IMG/VR virus record: IMGVR_UViG_3300035228_001909
Location: 1 to 28,233 of that record
Strand: one strand, 5' to 3'
Origin: a virus
Length of the DNA: 28,233 nucleotides
How positions within the stretch are numbered: position 1 is the stretch's first letter; each line of letters begins with the position of its first letter. The position numbers and the translations under genes are program-made. A model generated the notes under the pieces. That model was not told where the DNA came from. It did no database searches and worked only from the letters and a program-made list of their open reading frames with translations. This document shows, one piece after another, positions 1,981-18,724 of the stretch.

Positions 1981-3114
1981 ATGTTTATCCTTGGAATTAA
2001 TATTTCTCACCATCCATCAATTGCATTGGTTGAAGATGGTAAGGTGATCTACTACATGGAGGATGATCGTTACAATGGTATCAAAGAAGAAGAATGGTTA
2101 CGTGGTAGTATGATGCGGTGTCTTATGGACATCGTTAGATATACTCGCCACTTAGAACATATTACATTCTCTTCTTACGGTAAAGTTGATGGAATTAATA
2201 CTTATGATTATCCCGATTGTGATATTATTCAGGATGTGAAGGATAATCTTGGTAGGTATGGAATTACTTTTGGGGACTCTCATTACTATTGGGAGCATCA
2301 TCTCTACCATGCATGTAACGCATTTTATGGTTCGGGGTTTGATGATGCAGCAGCACTTGTTTTAGATGGTGGTGGACATTATTTTAATGACTACATCCCC
2401 CTTAGAGAATCTGAATCGATGTATAAGTTCTCTGATCATCAGATAGAACTTATCAAGCAGGTGTATACTCCTCAAGCAGATTGTTTTAAAACCAAATCTA
2501 AACCCATTCTTGTGGATGATAGGTATGTTTTATCTCCAACTGCTAGTTGTGGGTGGATTTTCAATAGCATTATGCAGATTACTGGCATCAATAGTGCTGG
2601 TAAGTTGATGGGAATCTCTCCGTATGGTGATGCAAGTAAGGCGTGTACCTCTGATTGGTTTCTTTATGATGAACCTACTGACACTTGGATTACCGATAAT
2701 CAAACCATATTAAATAGTTACAGGAGATGCTATGATGATCCAATGTTAGATCCTGCGGAATATTACAACCCAGAATTTGATTTTGATCTCATTGCAAACT
2801 TGACTAAAAAAGCGCAGGATGAAACTAGGAAGCATACTATTCGTCTTATCAGATCTCTTCTTAAAAAAGTAGAAACGAAAAACTTAGTACTCTCTGGTGG
2901 ATACTTTTTAAACTGCGTTAATAACTATGAATACTCCAAAGAATTCCCCGATATAAATTTTTATATTGATCCTATTGCACATGACGGGGGAACATCAATT
3001 GGTGCTGCTATGTACTTATGGCACCACATTCTAAATAAAAATCAATCTACTGAACCTTTATCCGTATGGCAAGAAAGAGAAAGTCTGACTTACAACCAAT
3101 CGGCGTTGGTATGA
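1981..3114 (+). CDS. Carbamoyltransferase (NodU/CmcH/TobZ family), N-domain only
   Basis: A 377-aa protein of the O-carbamoyltransferase family. Visible motifs are the N-terminal ASKHA strand (MFILGINISHHPSIALVEDG), the metal-binding type signature EHHLYHACNAFYG (about 105-117), the phosphate loop-like VLDGGGH (127-133), GGYFLNCVNN, and the late HDGGTSIGAAMYLW. These belong to the Kae1-like domain, which transfers carbamoyl to an acceptor hydroxyl. The protein ends there. The C-terminal YrdC-like domain that makes carbamoyl-adenylate in full-length members (about 550 aa or more) is missing. Cyanophage homologues are thought to modify sugars or other metabolites, but the acceptor is unknown. 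The 3' end overlaps phoH by 49 nt. Confidence 0.88.
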   Translation: MFILGINISHHPSIALVEDGKVIYYMEDDRYNGIKEEEWLRGSMMRCLMDIVRYTRHLEHITFSSYGKVDGINTYDYPDCDIIQDVKDNLGRYGITFGDSHYYWEHHLYHACNAFYGSGFDDAAALVLDGGGHYFNDYIPLRESESMYKFSDHQIELIKQVYTPQADCFKTKSKPILVDDRYVLSPTASCGWIFNSIMQITGINSAGKLMGISPYGDASKACTSDWFLYDEPTDTWITDNQTILNSYRRCYDDPMLDPAEYYNPEFDFDLIANLTKKAQDETRKHTIRLIRSLLKKVETKNLVLSGGYFLNCVNNYEYSKEFPDINFYIDPIAHDGGTSIGAAMYLWHHILNKNQSTEPLSVWQERESLTYNQSALV

Positions 3115-3836
3115 CCGCTAAACATATGAGCGCCAAACAAATGAAGAGACGTAAACCAATCAACGCTGAATTTCTTTTAGATGTTGATCCTCTTACTGAG
3201 AATCAAGAAAAACTTTATGATTCTTTTGATGAGGATAAAAACATTGTTGCTTATGGTTGTGCGGGAACAGGTAAGACTTTTATTACATTCTATAATGCTC
3301 TGAAGAATGTTCTTGATGAGAACTCACCCTATGAGAAGATCTACATCGTTCGTTCTTTAGTTGCTACTAGAGAGATTGGATTCCTTCCTGGAACTCATGA
3401 GGATAAGGCAGATATCTATCAGATTCCCTATAAGAACATGGTAAAATACATGTTTCAGATGGAATCTGATTCTGATTTTGAGATGTTGTATGGCAATTTG
3501 AAGACACAAGGGACTGTAAGTTTCTGGTCTACCTCATTCCTCAGAGGAACTACTCTAGATAGAGCAATTATTATCGTTGATGAATTCCAAAACTTGAATT
3601 TTCATGAACTTGATAGTATAATTACTAGAGCAGGGGAGAATACTAAAATTATGTTCTGTGGTGATGCAACTCAAACCGACTTGCAAAAAACCAATGAGCG
3701 AAATGGTATAATTGACTTTATGAAGATTCTTAGAGTAATGCCATCGTTTGACATCATTGAGTTTGGTCTTGATGATATTGTCCGATCAGGTCTCTGTAAA
3801 GAATATCTGTATGCAAAACACGAATTAGGTTTTTGA
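3066..3836 (+). CDS. phoH: PhoH-like P-loop ATPase
   Basis: A 256-aa ATPase with Walker A GCAGTGKT (64-71), Walker B IIIVDEFQN (168-176) and the downstream GDATQTDL sensor-like motif (199-206). These features define the PhoH family, common in marine phages. In bacteria phoH belongs to the phosphate-stress regulon, but its role in phage infection is unsettled. The start at 3066 lies inside the carbamoyltransferase gene. It is preferred because the N-terminus it adds (MARKRK...) resembles cyanophage PhoH. ATG 3111, overlapping the upstream stop, is the shorter alternative. The stop overlaps the next gene as TGATG. Confidence 0.95.
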   Translation: MARKRKSDLQPIGVGMTAKHMSAKQMKRRKPINAEFLLDVDPLTENQEKLYDSFDEDKNIVAYGCAGTGKTFITFYNALKNVLDENSPYEKIYIVRSLVATREIGFLPGTHEDKADIYQIPYKNMVKYMFQMESDSDFEMLYGNLKTQGTVSFWSTSFLRGTTLDRAIIIVDEFQNLNFHELDSIITRAGENTKIMFCGDATQTDLQKTNERNGIIDFMKILRVMPSFDIIEFGLDDIVRSGLCKEYLYAKHELGF

Positions 3837-11747: not shown

Positions 11748-12560
11748 ATGGCAAATCCTATTAATTCTGGCATTAGAATGTCAGACTTAAAGTCCAAGAT
11801 AATGAGACCTTCATTATCATCAGTTTATGGTGTCATAATTAAACAACCACCAGGTCTTAACTTTGAGGGATTTGATGGCCAACTGATGGAATTAACCTGT
11901 GTGGAGGCATCTCTTCCAGGATCTAGTCTTGGAACGATAGACACCAATAGAGATTATCGTGGTGTTATTGAGAAGCACGCATATTCAAAACTATATGATG
12001 ATACTATTGACTTCACCTTTATGGTAACAATGGACCCTGATGACAATCCTCAAAAATCTTATATTCAAATAAAATTCTTTGAAGCTTGGATGAGATATAT
12101 TGTTGGAGAAGATGTTGGTGATAAAGTATTAAAGTCAAAAACCTTTCAATCTACCCTTAGATATCCAATTGAATATCAATCAGATCTTGCTATTATTAAA
12201 TTTGAGAAAGATTTGGGATTTGGTATAACCAAAAAATCAAATATATTGGCATATGAATTTGTTCAGGCATTTCCTAAGTCAATTAGTTCTACTCCCGTCA
12301 GTTATGATGGATCTCAGGTTTTAAAAGTAACAGTGTCATTTACATATACTAGATATTTTGTATCTGATGTTAGTGATCAAATTGATGCAAGTTATATCCC
12401 ACCTAGTCTTCTTAACCCTAATTCTCCTGGTAACCCTGAGTTTGCTGGATTGTATTCCTCAAAGGAATTTAATCTTTCTGGAAAACAATTAGACTTCTTT
12501 AGAAACGTTCCTGACAGCTCAATGTTTGGTTCCACAGCATTCCCCGTAATGGGGAACTAA
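11748..12560 (+). CDS. Tail-tube-fold baseplate protein (gp54/gp19-like)
   Basis: A 270-aa protein with the architecture of T4 tube proteins. An N-terminal loop region ends at MELTCVEASLPGSSL. Then come a strand-rich core (DDTIDFTFMVTMD, FFEAWMRYI) and the late AYEFVQAFPKSISSTPVSYD and VTVSFTYTRYF that recur in gp19 and gp54. It probably initiates or forms part of the tail tube on the hub; gp54 is favoured because it lies with hub genes. It diverges from gene 4 across a 44-nt gap. No SD is seen. A separate gp19 elsewhere in the genome cannot be checked here. Confidence 0.68.
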   Translation: MANPINSGIRMSDLKSKIMRPSLSSVYGVIIKQPPGLNFEGFDGQLMELTCVEASLPGSSLGTIDTNRDYRGVIEKHAYSKLYDDTIDFTFMVTMDPDDNPQKSYIQIKFFEAWMRYIVGEDVGDKVLKSKTFQSTLRYPIEYQSDLAIIKFEKDLGFGITKKSNILAYEFVQAFPKSISSTPVSYDGSQVLKVTVSFTYTRYFVSDVSDQIDASYIPPSLLNPNSPGNPEFAGLYSSKEFNLSGKQLDFFRNVPDSSMFGSTAFPVMGN

Positions 12561-12584: not shown

Positions 12585-13304
12585 ATGCCATTACCTATTA
12601 TAGCAGCTCCAACTTATGAACTAGTTCTTCCCTCTACAGGTGAAGATTTGCAGTTTAGACCATTTTTGGTGAGGGAGGAAAAACTTCTTGTTCTTGCATT
12701 AGAGAGTGAAGATCCAAAACAAATAACTACATCAATTAAAACTGTAATTAAGAATTGTATTTTATCAAAAGGTATAAAGGTAGAGACTCTTCCTACCTTT
12801 GATATTGAGTTCTTATTTTTAAATATTCGTGGAAAGTCTGTTGGTGAAGAGATTGAAGTAAATGTTCTTTGTCCTGATGATGAAGAAACCTATGTGCCAG
12901 TGACGATTAATATTGATGATATTGGGGTTAAGAAGACTGAGGGTCATGATAGGTTAATCAAGATTGATGATAGTATTGCTATGGAGATGAAGTATCCTTC
13001 TCTTGAGCAATTCATCAAAAGTAATTTTGATTTTACAGGTGAAAGTACTGTCGAACAGTCATTTGATTTGATCGCTACATGTATCAGTCAAATTATTACC
13101 GAAGATGAGACTTGGGATTTAGATTCTGTTCCTAAGAACGAAGTCACTGCATTCTTAGATCAAATGAATTCTAATCAGTTTAAATTGATTGAGAAGTTCT
13201 TTGATACTATGCCCAAATTGTCACATGAGATTGAAGTTTTTAATCCAACTACAAAAGTTAAAAGCACTGTTGTATTGGAAGGATTATCAAGTTTTTTCGC
13301 ATAG
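12585..13304 (+). CDS. 26: Baseplate hub assembly protein gp26
   Basis: A 239-aa protein with cyanophage gp26 landmarks: PTYELVLPSTGE, FRPFLVREEKLLVLALESED, FDIEFLFLNIRGKSVGEE, NVLCPDDEETY, and a C-terminal helical half. In T4, gp26 (208 aa) acts in assembly of the baseplate hub. No SD precedes the ATG; a late motif does. The last codons are AGT TTT TTC GCA TAG, which form a T TTT TTC slippery site in frame. Ribosomes shifting by -1 there would bypass the stop and continue into gene 51. Similarity in position and logic to tail assembly chaperones such as lambda gpG is inference. Confidence 0.85.
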   Translation: MPLPIIAAPTYELVLPSTGEDLQFRPFLVREEKLLVLALESEDPKQITTSIKTVIKNCILSKGIKVETLPTFDIEFLFLNIRGKSVGEEIEVNVLCPDDEETYVPVTINIDDIGVKKTEGHDRLIKIDDSIAMEMKYPSLEQFIKSNFDFTGESTVEQSFDLIATCISQIITEDETWDLDSVPKNEVTAFLDQMNSNQFKLIEKFFDTMPKLSHEIEVFNPTTKVKSTVVLEGLSSFFA

Positions 13305-13328
13305 CCCTCTCCCATATGGACTTGGAGA
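13277..13328 (+). promoter_or_regulatory. Predicted programmed -1 frameshift signal, gene 26 to 51
   Basis: Three elements appear in the right order. An SD-like GGAAGGA (13277-13283) ends 8 nt before the slippery site. The slippery heptamer T TTT TTC (13292-13298) is in the gene 26 zero frame. A 5-bp hairpin TCTCC (13308-13312) / GGAGA (13324-13328) starts 9 nt after it. After a -1 slip the frame reads CGC ATA GCC CTC TCC CAT and runs directly into gene 51 at ATG 13316, without a stop until 13489. Confidence 0.7.
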
Positions 13329-13489
13329 ATTATTATAAGTTAAACTTTGCTTTACTCCAGTACCATAAATACTCATTAACAGAGATAGAGAATTTAATTC
13401 CATGGGAGCGGGAAGTTTACGTTGAACTCTTGAAGGCTCATTTGGAAGATGAGAAACTAAAGGCACAACAAGCGAATAATAGTACCTAA
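13316..13489 (+). CDS. 51: Baseplate hub assembly protein gp51 (57 aa), likely also made as gp26-51 fusion
   Basis: A 57-aa helical protein (MDLENYYKLNFALLQYHKYS, then LTEIENLIPWEREVYVELL) resembling the small cyanophage gp51. T4 gp51 is a larger factor catalysing hub assembly. There is no SD before ATG 13316, and the region just upstream is the gene 26 3' end. The frame is exactly -1 to gene 26 and is open back through the slippery heptamer at 13292-13298. A frameshift product would be gp26 without its last residue, six linker residues (RIALSH) and gp51. Internal initiation by coupling is the alternative. The stop overlaps the next ATG (TAATG). Confidence 0.8.
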   Translation: MDLENYYKLNFALLQYHKYSLTEIENLIPWEREVYVELLKAHLEDEKLKAQQANNST

Positions 13490-16020
13490 TGGCGAAAACA
13501 CCAGCATTCGTTAAAGAATTTATTCCATACTCCACGATTAAGCAGAATGAGCTTAAGTGGAGCACATATGCTGCTGCCAAGATTACTGAAAATAAAGTTT
13601 TAATATCTCGTGAATTTGGTTTAGATTTTGATAAGGTATATACTACATTCTTAAGGAATTATAGGAAGCACGAAAAAGACTTCCCTCTTTTTATATTAGA
13701 ACGAGGACAGGAGACAACAAAGAAGGATTATGAAAATATTGAGAAGTATGTATTATTTTTGTGGAAATATTACGTTGTAGATAGACCAAAGACTGTAAAG
13801 AAGGCTAAAGCACCTACGGTTACAAAGGTAAAAAAACCAAAGGTAGAAGAATCTTATGACGAGCAAGATATAGATTCAGATAACCCATATGGTGATGATA
13901 TTGACGATCCCCCAATGATGGCGGAGATGGGCAAATCTAAACCTAAAAAGGGTGGTGCTTTATCAAAACCTAAGGCAACAGTATCTAAAACATATGTTCC
14001 TGCAGGACCTTCAAAAGATGACCTACTTGGGGATGCTGCCGAAAAAATTGATCCAAGGATAGCAGAACTTCTTGGATTGCAGGATGGATTTGATCTTTCT
14101 TATGATGATTATCTTACTATTTTAAAGGAGTGGCAAGTAGCTGCTCGACTTAAAAACAGTGCGATATCAACTGAAGATTCCATGTTGATTGATGAAGAGA
14201 GAAAAAGAGTAAAGAGAAAGACTGGTAAGTTTAAGGTAAATGTAAAGAAGGTCAATAAGCCAACAACAAAGTCAGCTGTAAAACCTGTAAAGGGTGCTCT
14301 TCGTGGTGGCCAAAATCAAGCACAACTTCAGATTGCTCCTGGAAAAGATCCAAAGAAGAAGCGTAAAGCATCTCTTGAGGAGAATGTTGCTGCAATAAAA
14401 AAATCTGTTGAAAAGATATTTAAAGTCCTTGAAGGACAATTTAAGGCAATACAAAAGCAGTCAGATAAAGATAGACGTAACAAGCAGAAGAACAAAAGAT
14501 CTAAAAAAGAAGATAATTTAGAAGGAATTCGTCAAGGAATGATGAATCAAGCAAGGAAACTTGCTGCCCCTACGTTTGATTTATTAGATAGAATATTTAA
14601 GTTTATTGGAACGGTTTTGCTCGGAAGAGTAATGATCAAGTTGCTTGATTGGTTGGCAGACCCCAAGAATAAAGATAAAGTTGTAGCACTTGGAAAGTTC
14701 TTACAAGACTGGTGGCCAGTATTATTAAGTGCATTTGTTTTATTTGCAACTCCACTAGGTACATTGATTAGAAGTGTTCTTGCAGGTGTGGTGAAACTAT
14801 CCCTGTTTATGGCAAAGAAGGCCATTCCTGCTCTTGCTGCATTTGCTGCAAAAAACCCTCTTGGAGCAGCAGCCGTTGCAACGGTCGCTGTTGTTGGTGG
14901 CGGAGCATTTCTTGCTTCTCAAATGAATGATTCTGAGAGAGATGATGCAAATGCAAAGGACGATAAATCAACAGTAACTCCTGCAGAAACTAAGGCAACT
15001 GGACAAATGCCTTCTGGATCTCAGTTAATGGGAGAGCAAACACGACAGAGGGGATTCAATGCGTTCTCTGGTGGAGGTAAAATTCCAAAAAGAACTATGC
15101 CTTCTGGCGGAAAGGTAACACAATCCACTGGTAAGAGAGTTAGTGGTGCGGGAAAAGACACTCAGATGATTGTTGCCCAACCTGGTGAAATTGTCATGTC
15201 TAAACCAGCAGTTGATAAGTTTGGAGCACCATTCCTACTTAATCTTAATAAGATGGGTGGTGGAACTAATAAACCAACGTTTAGTAAATTCGGTGACCTT
15301 CAATTCGCTCAAGGTGGCGGTGTTGTTGGTCAGGATTTTGACACGGAAAAAGTGATGCAAACTTTGAGGGACTGTTATATTACTCCCACTGAATTTGGAC
15401 CTCCAGGACCTAATAATCCAAGAATTCAAAACGTAACGAATTGGCTTTATGGAACAGGAGAGAAACTGAATACTGCAGGATTAGATGAATTCCAGGTCGA
15501 GGATTTGAAGAGTGCGAAGAGGAGTTATCCTAAGATAGATCTGAATAGAAGAAGAAAGAATCCTCTCGGTGCTAACCCTGAACAGAAGAAGGAAGAAGAG
15601 AAGAAGAAGGCCAAGGCAAAACCCAGACCGATGGGTCGCTCTGCAGCGAAGATGAGAATGGAGGCGAAGAAGGGGGAAGAAACTGCAATTGAACCACCTT
15701 CTTCTGGCAATAAGGTTTCATCAGCAGCGGCAGCAGCACCAATTAATGGTGTTATCCCAAAGGCATCAAAACCACCAAAACCAACAACTGTTAAACCTGC
15801 TCCTGCAATGTTGGGTAAAGGTAATTTGCCTCCCACTCCAGAACCACCACAACCTAAAATTAATGTTATAAGTGCATCTACTACATCTGGTGCTGGAGGA
15901 CCTAAATCTGCTCCTGGGTCTACTGGTGCTAGGGATTTGCCTACAGATTTTGAAGCATTCTATCAAACAGAAATGAGAATGATGATGCTTGCAATCTATG
16001 GAATTACTGAGGTAGAGTGA
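13489..16020 (+). CDS. 29: Tape measure-type protein (gp29-like)
   Basis: An 843-aa protein directly after the gp26/gp51 pair, where T4-like phages and chaperone-tape measure operons place the tail length determinant. Residues 1-100 are structured. Residues 100-290 are Lys/Pro-rich linker. Residues about 294-350 are a basic coiled-coil (SLEENVAAIKKSVEKIFKVL). About 371 begins FIGTVLLGR, followed by hydrophobic segments to about 485 (AAAVATVAVVGGGAFLAS). About 562 has AQPGEIVMSKPAVDKFG, a phrase common in tape measures. The end is Pro/Ala-rich before a C-terminal amphipathic helix. It likely spans the tail lumen and may insert in the host membrane. It shares its central module with the next gene. 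Confidence 0.7.
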   Translation: MAKTPAFVKEFIPYSTIKQNELKWSTYAAAKITENKVLISREFGLDFDKVYTTFLRNYRKHEKDFPLFILERGQETTKKDYENIEKYVLFLWKYYVVDRPKTVKKAKAPTVTKVKKPKVEESYDEQDIDSDNPYGDDIDDPPMMAEMGKSKPKKGGALSKPKATVSKTYVPAGPSKDDLLGDAAEKIDPRIAELLGLQDGFDLSYDDYLTILKEWQVAARLKNSAISTEDSMLIDEERKRVKRKTGKFKVNVKKVNKPTTKSAVKPVKGALRGGQNQAQLQIAPGKDPKKKRKASLEENVAAIKKSVEKIFKVLEGQFKAIQKQSDKDRRNKQKNKRSKKEDNLEGIRQGMMNQARKLAAPTFDLLDRIFKFIGTVLLGRVMIKLLDWLADPKNKDKVVALGKFLQDWWPVLLSAFVLFATPLGTLIRSVLAGVVKLSLFMAKKAIPALAAFAAKNPLGAAAVATVAVVGGGAFLASQMNDSERDDANAKDDKSTVTPAETKATGQMPSGSQLMGEQTRQRGFNAFSGGGKIPKRTMPSGGKVTQSTGKRVSGAGKDTQMIVAQPGEIVMSKPAVDKFGAPFLLNLNKMGGGTNKPTFSKFGDLQFAQGGGVVGQDFDTEKVMQTLRDCYITPTEFGPPGPNNPRIQNVTNWLYGTGEKLNTAGLDEFQVEDLKSAKRSYPKIDLNRRRKNPLGANPEQKKEEEKKKAKAKPRPMGRSAAKMRMEAKKGEETAIEPPSSGNKVSSAAAAAPINGVIPKASKPPKPTTVKPAPAMLGKGNLPPTPEPPQPKINVISASTTSGAGGPKSAPGSTGARDLPTDFEAFYQTEMRMMMLAIYGITEVE

Positions 16021-16021
16021 G

Positions 16022-18724
16022 ATGGCTATAAGTTCTCAAAAACTTTTACCTCAGACTGGTGGTGGATCCCTTGCAGTAACGAGACCAACTGCAAATCTTG
16101 TTCCTTATAAGAAACCTCCTGGGGGAGCACTTGCAAAGCAACCTGAGGGTAAAGAGGAAAAGGATTCAAAATCTTCATTAGAAGAGAATGTTGTTGAAAT
16201 TAGAGTAAAAACTAAGAAGATCGAGAAGATTATTGGTCGAACCTTAAAACTCAATAAAAAAACCATGAGGTTTGAGGCGAGACAAAATCAGAAAGATCTT
16301 CGTGAGAAGACCGAGAACCAGAAAGAGAAGAAGTTATCTGGTATTAAGATGCCTCAAGGCATCAGTATTCCTAAGATAGGATTCTTAGAAAGACTTAAGG
16401 ATTTTATAGGAACAGTACTTCTTGGTAGAATATTATATCTTCTTGTTGGATCTGCACCACAACTTTTGGGGTTTCTTAAATTTATTGTTCCTATTGGTAA
16501 ATTTATTGCTGATGTTGTAGGTGGACTTACTGATAAATTAATATCTGCAATTGCATTTGGGTACAGAATAAAAACCAAGGTAGAAGAGGTAACTAAAAAT
16601 TTATTTGGAGATGAAGGACTGAAGAAGTTCAAAGACTTTCAAGGGTTCTTCACCAAATTTATGAATTTGGCATTAATTGCAGTGATGATTGCTGGAACTA
16701 CTGCTTCTGATACTGGATTTGGTAGGGGAAGAGATCGAGGTCGTGGTAGAGATTTAAGTGGTAGACGCGCTAGTAGATCTTCTCAGCAAAGATACCGTAA
16801 AAGATTTGGTGATAAAAAGTATGCTGAACGATTTGGTAGAAGAAATTTAAAAAGATTAACTAAAGGTGAGAGTTTAGCAAAACGTGGAGCTCAGGCATCA
16901 AGAGGGGCTCAGAGTGGAGTACAGAAGTTTGTTCAAAAGGGAGTAACTAAAGTCGCAGGTAAAGCTGTTGGCAAAATTGCGGGTAAGATTCCAATTGTTG
17001 GTCCACTGATTGACTTCGGTGTAAGAGCATTTATCTTCAAAGAACCTCTTGGTAAGGCAGCTGCTGCTGCTGTAGGTGCTGCTGCTGGTCAAGCACTAGG
17101 CACATTCCTTGGTGGTGCCATTGGTGGCATTGTAGGATCTGTTGTACCTTTCATTGGAAATCTACTTCTTGGCGGTGCAGGTGCAACAGTCGGTGGACTG
17201 ATAGGTGGCATTATTGGTGATCAGATTGGTGTCAGTTTATATAATGTTATTGCTGGTAAGGAAGATTCTGGTGCCATTGAAGATGCTTCTATAGAAGCAA
17301 AAGCAAAGGGTGGGGTAGTTGGTGAGGAAGAATATGAAGATGCGAGAGAAAAAAGAGCCAGGAATGCTAGGATTAAACGGATAATGCCTAGTAATGACAG
17401 TCACATGAATACCAATGTGGAGGTCGCAAAAAAAGCAAAAGGTAAAAGTGGCAATATCTTTAATAGATTATTTTCATTTATGGCTAGAAGCGCGGAATCA
17501 GTCACTTCATTTGTGAATCCGTTTAAAAAAATTCAGAGTGCCGTAAAGAATCTTAGGCAGAGTAATAGTAATATTATCAGTAAGATAATGGCACTTGGTG
17601 CTGACCTTATTGCAGGTAAAAAACCAGATAATAAAACAATAAAGGATATTGTTGGATCTTTGGTATCTGCCTTCGATGCTGCTGTTCCAGCGCCGATAAA
17701 CCTAGTTAAGGGTATATTTCAAAAATTATCGCAGGGTGGTTATGTTCTTGAGACCCCTCAGCAACAAAATAAAAGAGTTCGGGATTTAACTAAAGTAGTT
17801 GAACGTAAGTTTTTAACTGATATTACTAGAGATACAACACGTACACTAAATGTAATTAAAGGTATTGAAGGTAAAAAGGAGAGTGATGTTGCTACTGGTC
17901 CTGGTGGTCCTGGTGGAACTGGTCCTATTATTCCTGGGACTAGATTACCATCTTCAGGGGCAACATTAAGTGGATCAAATAAACTTTCAGGATTAACTGG
18001 AAATTCTGGAACTGTTGCTTATGGTGGAAATGCTGGATCTAAATTGGATATTTCTTACAGTCCATTTGCACAATCTGATCTTGATGATCAAGCATCCCGA
18101 GGTGGTATTGTAATTACTTCTGGTAAGGGTTTTAGATCTAGTACCAACTCAGACCATAAAGGATATGATGTTGGTGCAGATAGAGGAACACCAATGTATG
18201 CATATTTGGATGGTGAGGTAACTCATGTAAACAGTGCTTTGGGTAGTGCGGCAGATGCTGGGTATGGTTATTGGGTAGTATGGAAAGATTCTGTACATGG
18301 TGCCTATCATTTCTTTGGTCACTTAGATAGACCTCCTGCACTATCTGTTGGTACTAAATTTAAAGCAGGTGCCTTACTTGCTAATGTTGGTGGATCTGGT
18401 AGTGGTAGTCTAACTGCATATGATCCTCATCTACACTGGGAGATATCTACTTCTGCACCTGCTGCAAATGGTCAATTCAGTAGTTATGTTGATCCTGGTC
18501 AATGGATCAATACTCATGGTGCTAAAAAGAATGCTGCACAAGTTGCAACAAATACACCACAAAATCCTGATGCTGTTGCACAGAATGCAAGTTATGAGCA
18601 GGATGGTACAACTGTTGCAATTATTGAGAAGACTAAAGTTATACGAGTTCCTGTTCAGACCAGTAGAGGAACTAAAATGAGACAGCGAGTAGTTCCTGAT
18701 ACGCAAGTTGTATCACCAACTTGA
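16022..18724 (+). CDS. Second tape measure-like protein with C-terminal M23 metallopeptidase
   Basis: A 900-aa protein related to its neighbour: SLEENVVEIRVKTKKIEKI (from about 51) and DFIGTVLLGRILYLLVG (from about 125). Residues about 335-420 are a Gly/Ala-rich hydrophobic glycine-zipper region. Residues about 690-840 form an M23 (LytM-type) endopeptidase domain with HKGYD (H712, D716), YHFFGHL (H763, H767) and the HLH pair (H803, H805), the expected zinc and catalytic residues. It probably cuts peptidoglycan cross-links during DNA injection, replacing the lysozyme of T4 gp5, which is absent from the gp5-like protein here. It starts one nucleotide after the preceding stop. Whether it measures the tail or rides on the tape measure is unknown. 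Confidence 0.8.
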   Translation: MAISSQKLLPQTGGGSLAVTRPTANLVPYKKPPGGALAKQPEGKEEKDSKSSLEENVVEIRVKTKKIEKIIGRTLKLNKKTMRFEARQNQKDLREKTENQKEKKLSGIKMPQGISIPKIGFLERLKDFIGTVLLGRILYLLVGSAPQLLGFLKFIVPIGKFIADVVGGLTDKLISAIAFGYRIKTKVEEVTKNLFGDEGLKKFKDFQGFFTKFMNLALIAVMIAGTTASDTGFGRGRDRGRGRDLSGRRASRSSQQRYRKRFGDKKYAERFGRRNLKRLTKGESLAKRGAQASRGAQSGVQKFVQKGVTKVAGKAVGKIAGKIPIVGPLIDFGVRAFIFKEPLGKAAAAAVGAAAGQALGTFLGGAIGGIVGSVVPFIGNLLLGGAGATVGGLIGGIIGDQIGVSLYNVIAGKEDSGAIEDASIEAKAKGGVVGEEEYEDAREKRARNARIKRIMPSNDSHMNTNVEVAKKAKGKSGNIFNRLFSFMARSAESVTSFVNPFKKIQSAVKNLRQSNSNIISKIMALGADLIAGKKPDNKTIKDIVGSLVSAFDAAVPAPINLVKGIFQKLSQGGYVLETPQQQNKRVRDLTKVVERKFLTDITRDTTRTLNVIKGIEGKKESDVATGPGGPGGTGPIIPGTRLPSSGATLSGSNKLSGLTGNSGTVAYGGNAGSKLDISYSPFAQSDLDDQASRGGIVITSGKGFRSSTNSDHKGYDVGADRGTPMYAYLDGEVTHVNSALGSAADAGYGYWVVWKDSVHGAYHFFGHLDRPPALSVGTKFKAGALLANVGGSGSGSLTAYDPHLHWEISTSAPAANGQFSSYVDPGQWINTHGAKKNAAQVATNTPQNPDAVAQNASYEQDGTTVAIIEKTKVIRVPVQTSRGTKMRQRVVPDTQVVSPT

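Follow-up and report, generated by a model that had tools for sequence, protein, structure and literature searches.

Does gene 51, which follows gene 26 in this DNA of a marine T4-like cyanophage, encode a protein of its own, or is it the 3′ portion of a longer reading frame that begins in gene 26? The window analyzed here is the whole 28,233-nt stretch of an IMG/VR virus record (IMGVR_UViG_3300035228_001909). Very probably, a −1 slip of the ribosome at a T_TTT_TTC heptamer near the end of gene 26 yields the short and long tail assembly chaperones (TAC-N and TAC-NC) of this phage. The layout of the junction, its conservation, the competing explanations and the relationship to known systems are presented in turn.

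The features of the junction all lie on the + strand. Gene 26 (12585..13304) encodes the putative TAC-N of 239 amino acids and ends with AGT TTT TTC GCA TAG. The slippery heptamer T_TTT_TTC occupies positions 13292..13298 in the zero frame of gene 26, and the TAG stop codon of this frame is found at 13302..13304. An open −1 frame begins 40 nt ahead of the gp26 stop and runs as far as the TAA at 13487–13489 (last coding position 13486), and the −1 reading after the slip is FF-RIALSHMDLENYYK.... The −1 frame extension (gene 51, or TAC-C) spans positions 13298..13489. Its C-terminal family match is to phrog_634 (E = 7e-28), and columns 231–280 of phrog_150 are matched as well. The conventional annotation of gene 51 begins at the first ATG of the −1 frame (13316..13489); many relatives lack this start. 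The ATG of the 843-aa gene downstream overlaps the gene 51 stop at 13489 (TAATG). The preliminary description had placed the heptamer in the zero frame two codons before the gp26 stop, with gene 51 open at exactly −1 back through it and without an SD sequence of its own. The coordinates and spacings were found to be right, the open frame was confirmed in the window sequence, and no SD precedes the ATG at 13316.

The comparison of the junction across relatives that had been proposed in the preliminary description was carried out, and the heptamer and the −1 relation were both kept. TTTTTTC with gp51 at −1 was found in all 79 of the close IMG/VR relatives in which the junction is intact; one further sequence of the 80 close relatives ends at a contig edge within the junction and was left out. 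A diverse set was assembled from 75 gp26 genes with less than 85% DNA identity, drawn from the Kyanoviridae, the Straboviridae, Sinorhizobium phages phiM7 and phiM9, Stenotrophomonas phage Moby, and one ackermannvirus. An in-frame T_TTT_TT[C/T/G], located 2–5 codons ahead of the gp26 stop and with gp51 at −1, is present in 72 of these 75 genes. The last base of the heptamer is C, T, and G in 66, 5, and 1 of the 72, respectively. No stop interrupts the −1 frame across the heptamer, either in the window or in any of the 72 heptamer-bearing representatives. T_TTT_TTC does not vary in the window's clade (36 representatives). T_TTT_TT[C/T/G] and the phase are also kept in highly divergent phages: KVP40, Aeromonas phages PX29 and AS-yj, Cronobacter phage LPCS28, Stenotrophomonas phage Moby, Sinorhizobium phages phiM7 and phiM9, Pelagibacter phage HTVC008M, Methylophilales phage Melnitz, and Acinetobacter phage nACB2.

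A chance origin of the heptamer was ruled out by the rarity of such motifs elsewhere. The window has 3 in-frame copies of T_TTT_TTN among its 8,733 codons, and the bodies of the gp26 genes have 5 among 17,481 codon positions, as against 72 of 75 genes in their last 12 codons. The codon ahead of TTT is AGT, TCT, GAT, AAT, or GGT, which specify four amino acids and end in T without exception (100% observed versus 53% predicted by the genes' own codon usage). The first Phe codon is TTT in all of the genes, where their own codon usage predicts 63%. The joint log10 P for these two features is −36.7 when the genes are treated as independent, a value that overstates the case because related genes are counted in this way. 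The preceding codon varies and yet always ends in T, and it is therefore the nucleotides rather than the peptide that are under selection. Judged by these codon statistics, the nucleotides of the heptamer are constrained where the amino acid varies.

Gene 51 could instead encode a separate small protein that is reinitiated at the ATG at 13316, 11 nt past the gp26 stop, with the heptamer being incidental. Throughout the window's clade this ATG is kept without change, but no SD precedes it, and start codons near the junction are missing from a good part of the diverse set. No ATG occurs up to 24 nt past the gp26 stop in 24 of the 72 heptamer-bearing representatives, and no ATG, GTG, or TTG occurs from the heptamer to the same distance past the stop in 17 of the 72. 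An ATG does overlap the gp26 stop in KVP40, phiM9, Moby, and Vibrio phage K448, and a free gp51 could be made besides the fusion. The −1 reading is nevertheless conserved over the stretch that separates the heptamer from the ATG. In the part of this stretch past the gp26 stop, the −1-frame entropy in the window's clade is 0.99, 0.47, and 1.39 at codon positions 1, 2, and 3, respectively, which is a coding-like pattern. Independent translation of gene 51 would also leave the synonymous constraint on T_TTT_TTC and the fused gp51 of T4 unexplained, and it is considered highly improbable for these reasons. Less probable still is slippage of RNA polymerase on the T run, adding a base in some transcripts to give the same fusion: the run reaches eight T in Melnitz and HTVC008M, but the six T of the window make a short run for a slipping bacterial polymerase, and the run keeps the T_TTT_TTC codon phase and ends in C in 66/72 genes rather than lengthening, in line with the needs of tandem tRNA slippage.

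Ribosomal −1 frameshifting that fuses gp26 to gp51, as first suggested in the preliminary description, is supported by the conserved heptamer, the conserved phase, and the constraint on the nucleotides. Some of the ribosomes translating gene 26 would slip back by 1 nt at U_UUU_UUC, with the P-site tRNA on UUU and the A-site tRNA on UUC. The slipped ribosomes would bypass the UAG codon and continue into gene 51. The two products would be gp26 (TAC-N, 239 aa) and the longer gp26-51 (TAC-NC, about 301 aa), for which the predicted sequence through the junction is ...LSSFF-RIALSHMDLENYY.... The junction peptides of the predicted fusion are those ending in LSSFFR or those starting with IALSHMDLENYYK after R. 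If the two proteins act as lambda gpG/gpGT do, the tape measure protein would be coated by abundant TAC-N and scarce TAC-NC, which would recruit the tail tube subunits and then leave. We infer the slippage in vivo, its efficiency, and the action of the products as chaperones.

Two possible stimulators had been described for the window, and their positions and spacings were reproduced. The SD-like element GGAAGGA is found at 13277..13283, 8 nt ahead of the heptamer. A 5-bp hairpin, UCUCC/GGAGA, is located at 13308..13328 (13308–13312 paired with 13324–13328), 9 nt past the heptamer. In the window neither element stands out from chance. The anti-SD strength of GGAAGGA is −5.5 kcal/mol versus −5.6 kcal/mol for synonymous recodings, and the segment containing the hairpin is no stabler than its shuffles (z = +0.9). 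A strong SD or hairpin was dropped as proof for the window, since neither beats these controls. Both elements are stronger in the relatives. Across the 72 genes the SD-like element is stronger than the recodings (mean z = −1.15), and GGAGGG is common. The hairpins GGUCC-AUAU-GGACC, GAUCC-GGAUC, or GGUUC-GAACC are found near the same place in relatives, about 10 nt downstream, and the variation among them looks like compensatory change. The downstream structures of P-SSM2 (z = −6.3) and S-PM2 (z = −7.0) are very stable. Across the family the slip is likely to be stimulated; in the window the two elements are possible stimulators.

The heptamer is absent from the gp26 homologues of K448, K475, and 207E48.1, ackermannvirus-type phages of Vibrio. 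These genes end with CTT TT[C/T] NNG TAA TG, in which the ATG lies over the stop in the −1 frame. Reinitiation, or a slip of a single tRNA with lesser strength, is a possible alternative mode of expression in the three phages. Further relatives of the K448 type were sought in IMG/VR and none were found. In KVP40, phiM9, Vibrio phage D490, and Moby, the heptamer is present and an ATG also overlaps the gp26 stop, and therefore a free gp51 and the fusion are both possible in these phages. A tentative and rather doubtful scheme is that the T4 superfamily provides for its long chaperone in three ways: by −1 frameshifting, which is the most widespread, by separate short and long genes in the T4 group, and by a TAATG overlap that frees gp51 in the Vibrio ackermannvirus lineage. 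If the last of these held true, the covalent gp26-51 fusion would be dispensable.

Individual sequences with altered genes were also encountered. Within positions 2001–2900 of L001, gp26 is 99% identical to that of the window, but the two gp51 sequences differ widely in their C-terminal half. This divergence just past the frameshift site suggests recombination or chimeric assembly. The T4-type gp51 in L115 and the gp26 in L096 are broken by a stop or a frame change, probably through sequencing error or local mutation.

The family and fold of gp26 were examined using profile searches and a structural model. The gp26 protein matches PF12322 (T4_baseplate, E = 5e-69) and phrog_150 (E = 1e-73). 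The AlphaFold2 model of gp26 has a pLDDT of 84.7. The best three VIA-align rows for this model are 3fgx, 2ob9, and 3klu (YqbN) with Z values of 8.0, 8.0, and 7.2, respectively, followed by a row at 3.6; a Z of 8.0 lies at the limit attained by models that have no clear match. The HK97 tail assembly chaperone (2ob9) was aligned with the gp26 model over 84 residues with an rmsd of 4.0; 3fgx and 3klu, too, are regarded as prophage tail assembly chaperones. The E-values from a Foldseek search with the gp26 model were not significant. No sequence similarity was detected between gp26 and lambda gpG (hhalign probability 0.1), and no meaningful match was obtained for the gp26 profile against PDB sequences. 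For a T4-type gp51 model, no chaperone was among the matches listed by Foldseek and VIA-align.

A gene of the tail-tube family (11748..12560, + strand; PF23849 Phage_TTP_2, E = 4e-13; phrog_45 tail tube, E = 7e-31) is located upstream of gp26, in the place of lambda V. Gene 51 is followed by the 843-aa tail gene (13489..16020, + strand; phrog_35029 of unknown function, E = 4e-51), in the place of the tape measure gene. The order of tail tube, 26, 51, and large tail gene resembles lambda V-G-T-H. The pair had been said to lie just before a tape measure-type gene; a large tail gene is indeed found there, and its identity as the tape measure is weakly backed (phrog_10030, E = 8e-5). The adjoining 900-aa tail protein (16022–18724) contains an M23 peptidase domain at residues 711–811 and has weak tape-measure similarity. 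Either of these two could be the tape measure. Elsewhere in the window, a Nol-like carbamoyltransferase is encoded at 1981–3114 (phrog_1601, E = 4e-54) and is followed by PhoH at 3066–3836. For the proteins gp26 and gp26-51, the best reading is that of a short and a long tail assembly chaperone (TAC-N and TAC-NC, respectively), and this reading is well supported. The lambda G/GT-type pair envisaged in the preliminary description is borne out by the fold matches, the conserved junction, and the fused gp51 of T4, and we infer chaperone activity for the gp26 pair.

Vladimirov, Gautam and Davidson (Virology 2022, 566:9-15) are said to have found frameshifting conserved in several T4-like groups; T4 itself reportedly has a separate gene for each form, 26 for the short and 51 for the long. 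A passage of the PRFect paper (PMC10885494) cites that work for T4-like phages with separate short and long genes, and in PMC12846349 it is the reference given for the poly-T frameshift signals of TAC-N genes in T4-like phages. The 26/51 frameshift system was already described in T4-like phages in 2022, and the window adds one member; the observation is therefore correct but known in kind. The breadth of conservation, the synonymous constraint, and the tests of the stimulators were computed afresh here. G-T frameshifting was earlier described as widely conserved with T4 excepted (PMC5009743), a statement that is now narrowed, as most of the T4-like groups sampled keep the site. The cyanophage gp51 was described by Sullivan et al. 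in 2010 (PMC3037559) as being without the first 200 residues and only about one-fifth (20%) as long as T4 gp51, and the same paper listed Aeh1 as a phage with gp51 missing. The part absent from the short cyanophage gp51 is plausibly gp26, joined by the frameshift, which would account for both descriptions. Gene 51 is unannotated in the records of ACG-2014b, ACG-2014d, ACG-2014j, S-CAM1, P-RSM1, LPCS28, and AS-yj, and its annotation is truncated in P-HM2 and ACG-2014a. The omission or truncation in several cyanophage records is apparently due to the frameshift, and cyanophage records could be corrected with a joined CDS for 26-51.

The protein predicted from the slip was compared with that of T4. 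The T4 gp51 is a single open frame of 249 aa that matches phrog_150, the gp26 family, along positions 13–280 of 282 (E = 3e-84). T4 gp51 is thus a homologue of the entire fusion, and T4 gp26 is one of the short form (PF12322, E = 9e-64). A profile of the computed frameshift products matches all of the T4-group gp51 proteins tested, and the junction is gapless in the alignments that were read against this profile (L112, L113, and L116). The T4 gp51 aligns through the junction, and therefore the predicted slip gives the same kind of protein as T4 makes from one gene without slipping. Transcription of genes 26 and 51 is divergent in T4, with no frameshift, whereas in the window they form a predicted −1-linked pair. 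The slippery site of lambda is G_GGA_AAG, in contrast to T_TTT_TTC in the window. The likeness to lambda gpG/gpGT lies in a short protein with a rare −1 extension near the 3′ end of its gene, predicted in the window, and in a place ahead of the tape measure gene in lambda and of a candidate for it in the window. Neither lambda product remains in the virion (PMC5009743). In the Vandenendeviridae and Andersonviridae, which are other phage families, a chaperone gene that precedes the tape measure likewise has a conserved −1 site of the poly-T kind, with the motif GTTTTT (PMC12846349).
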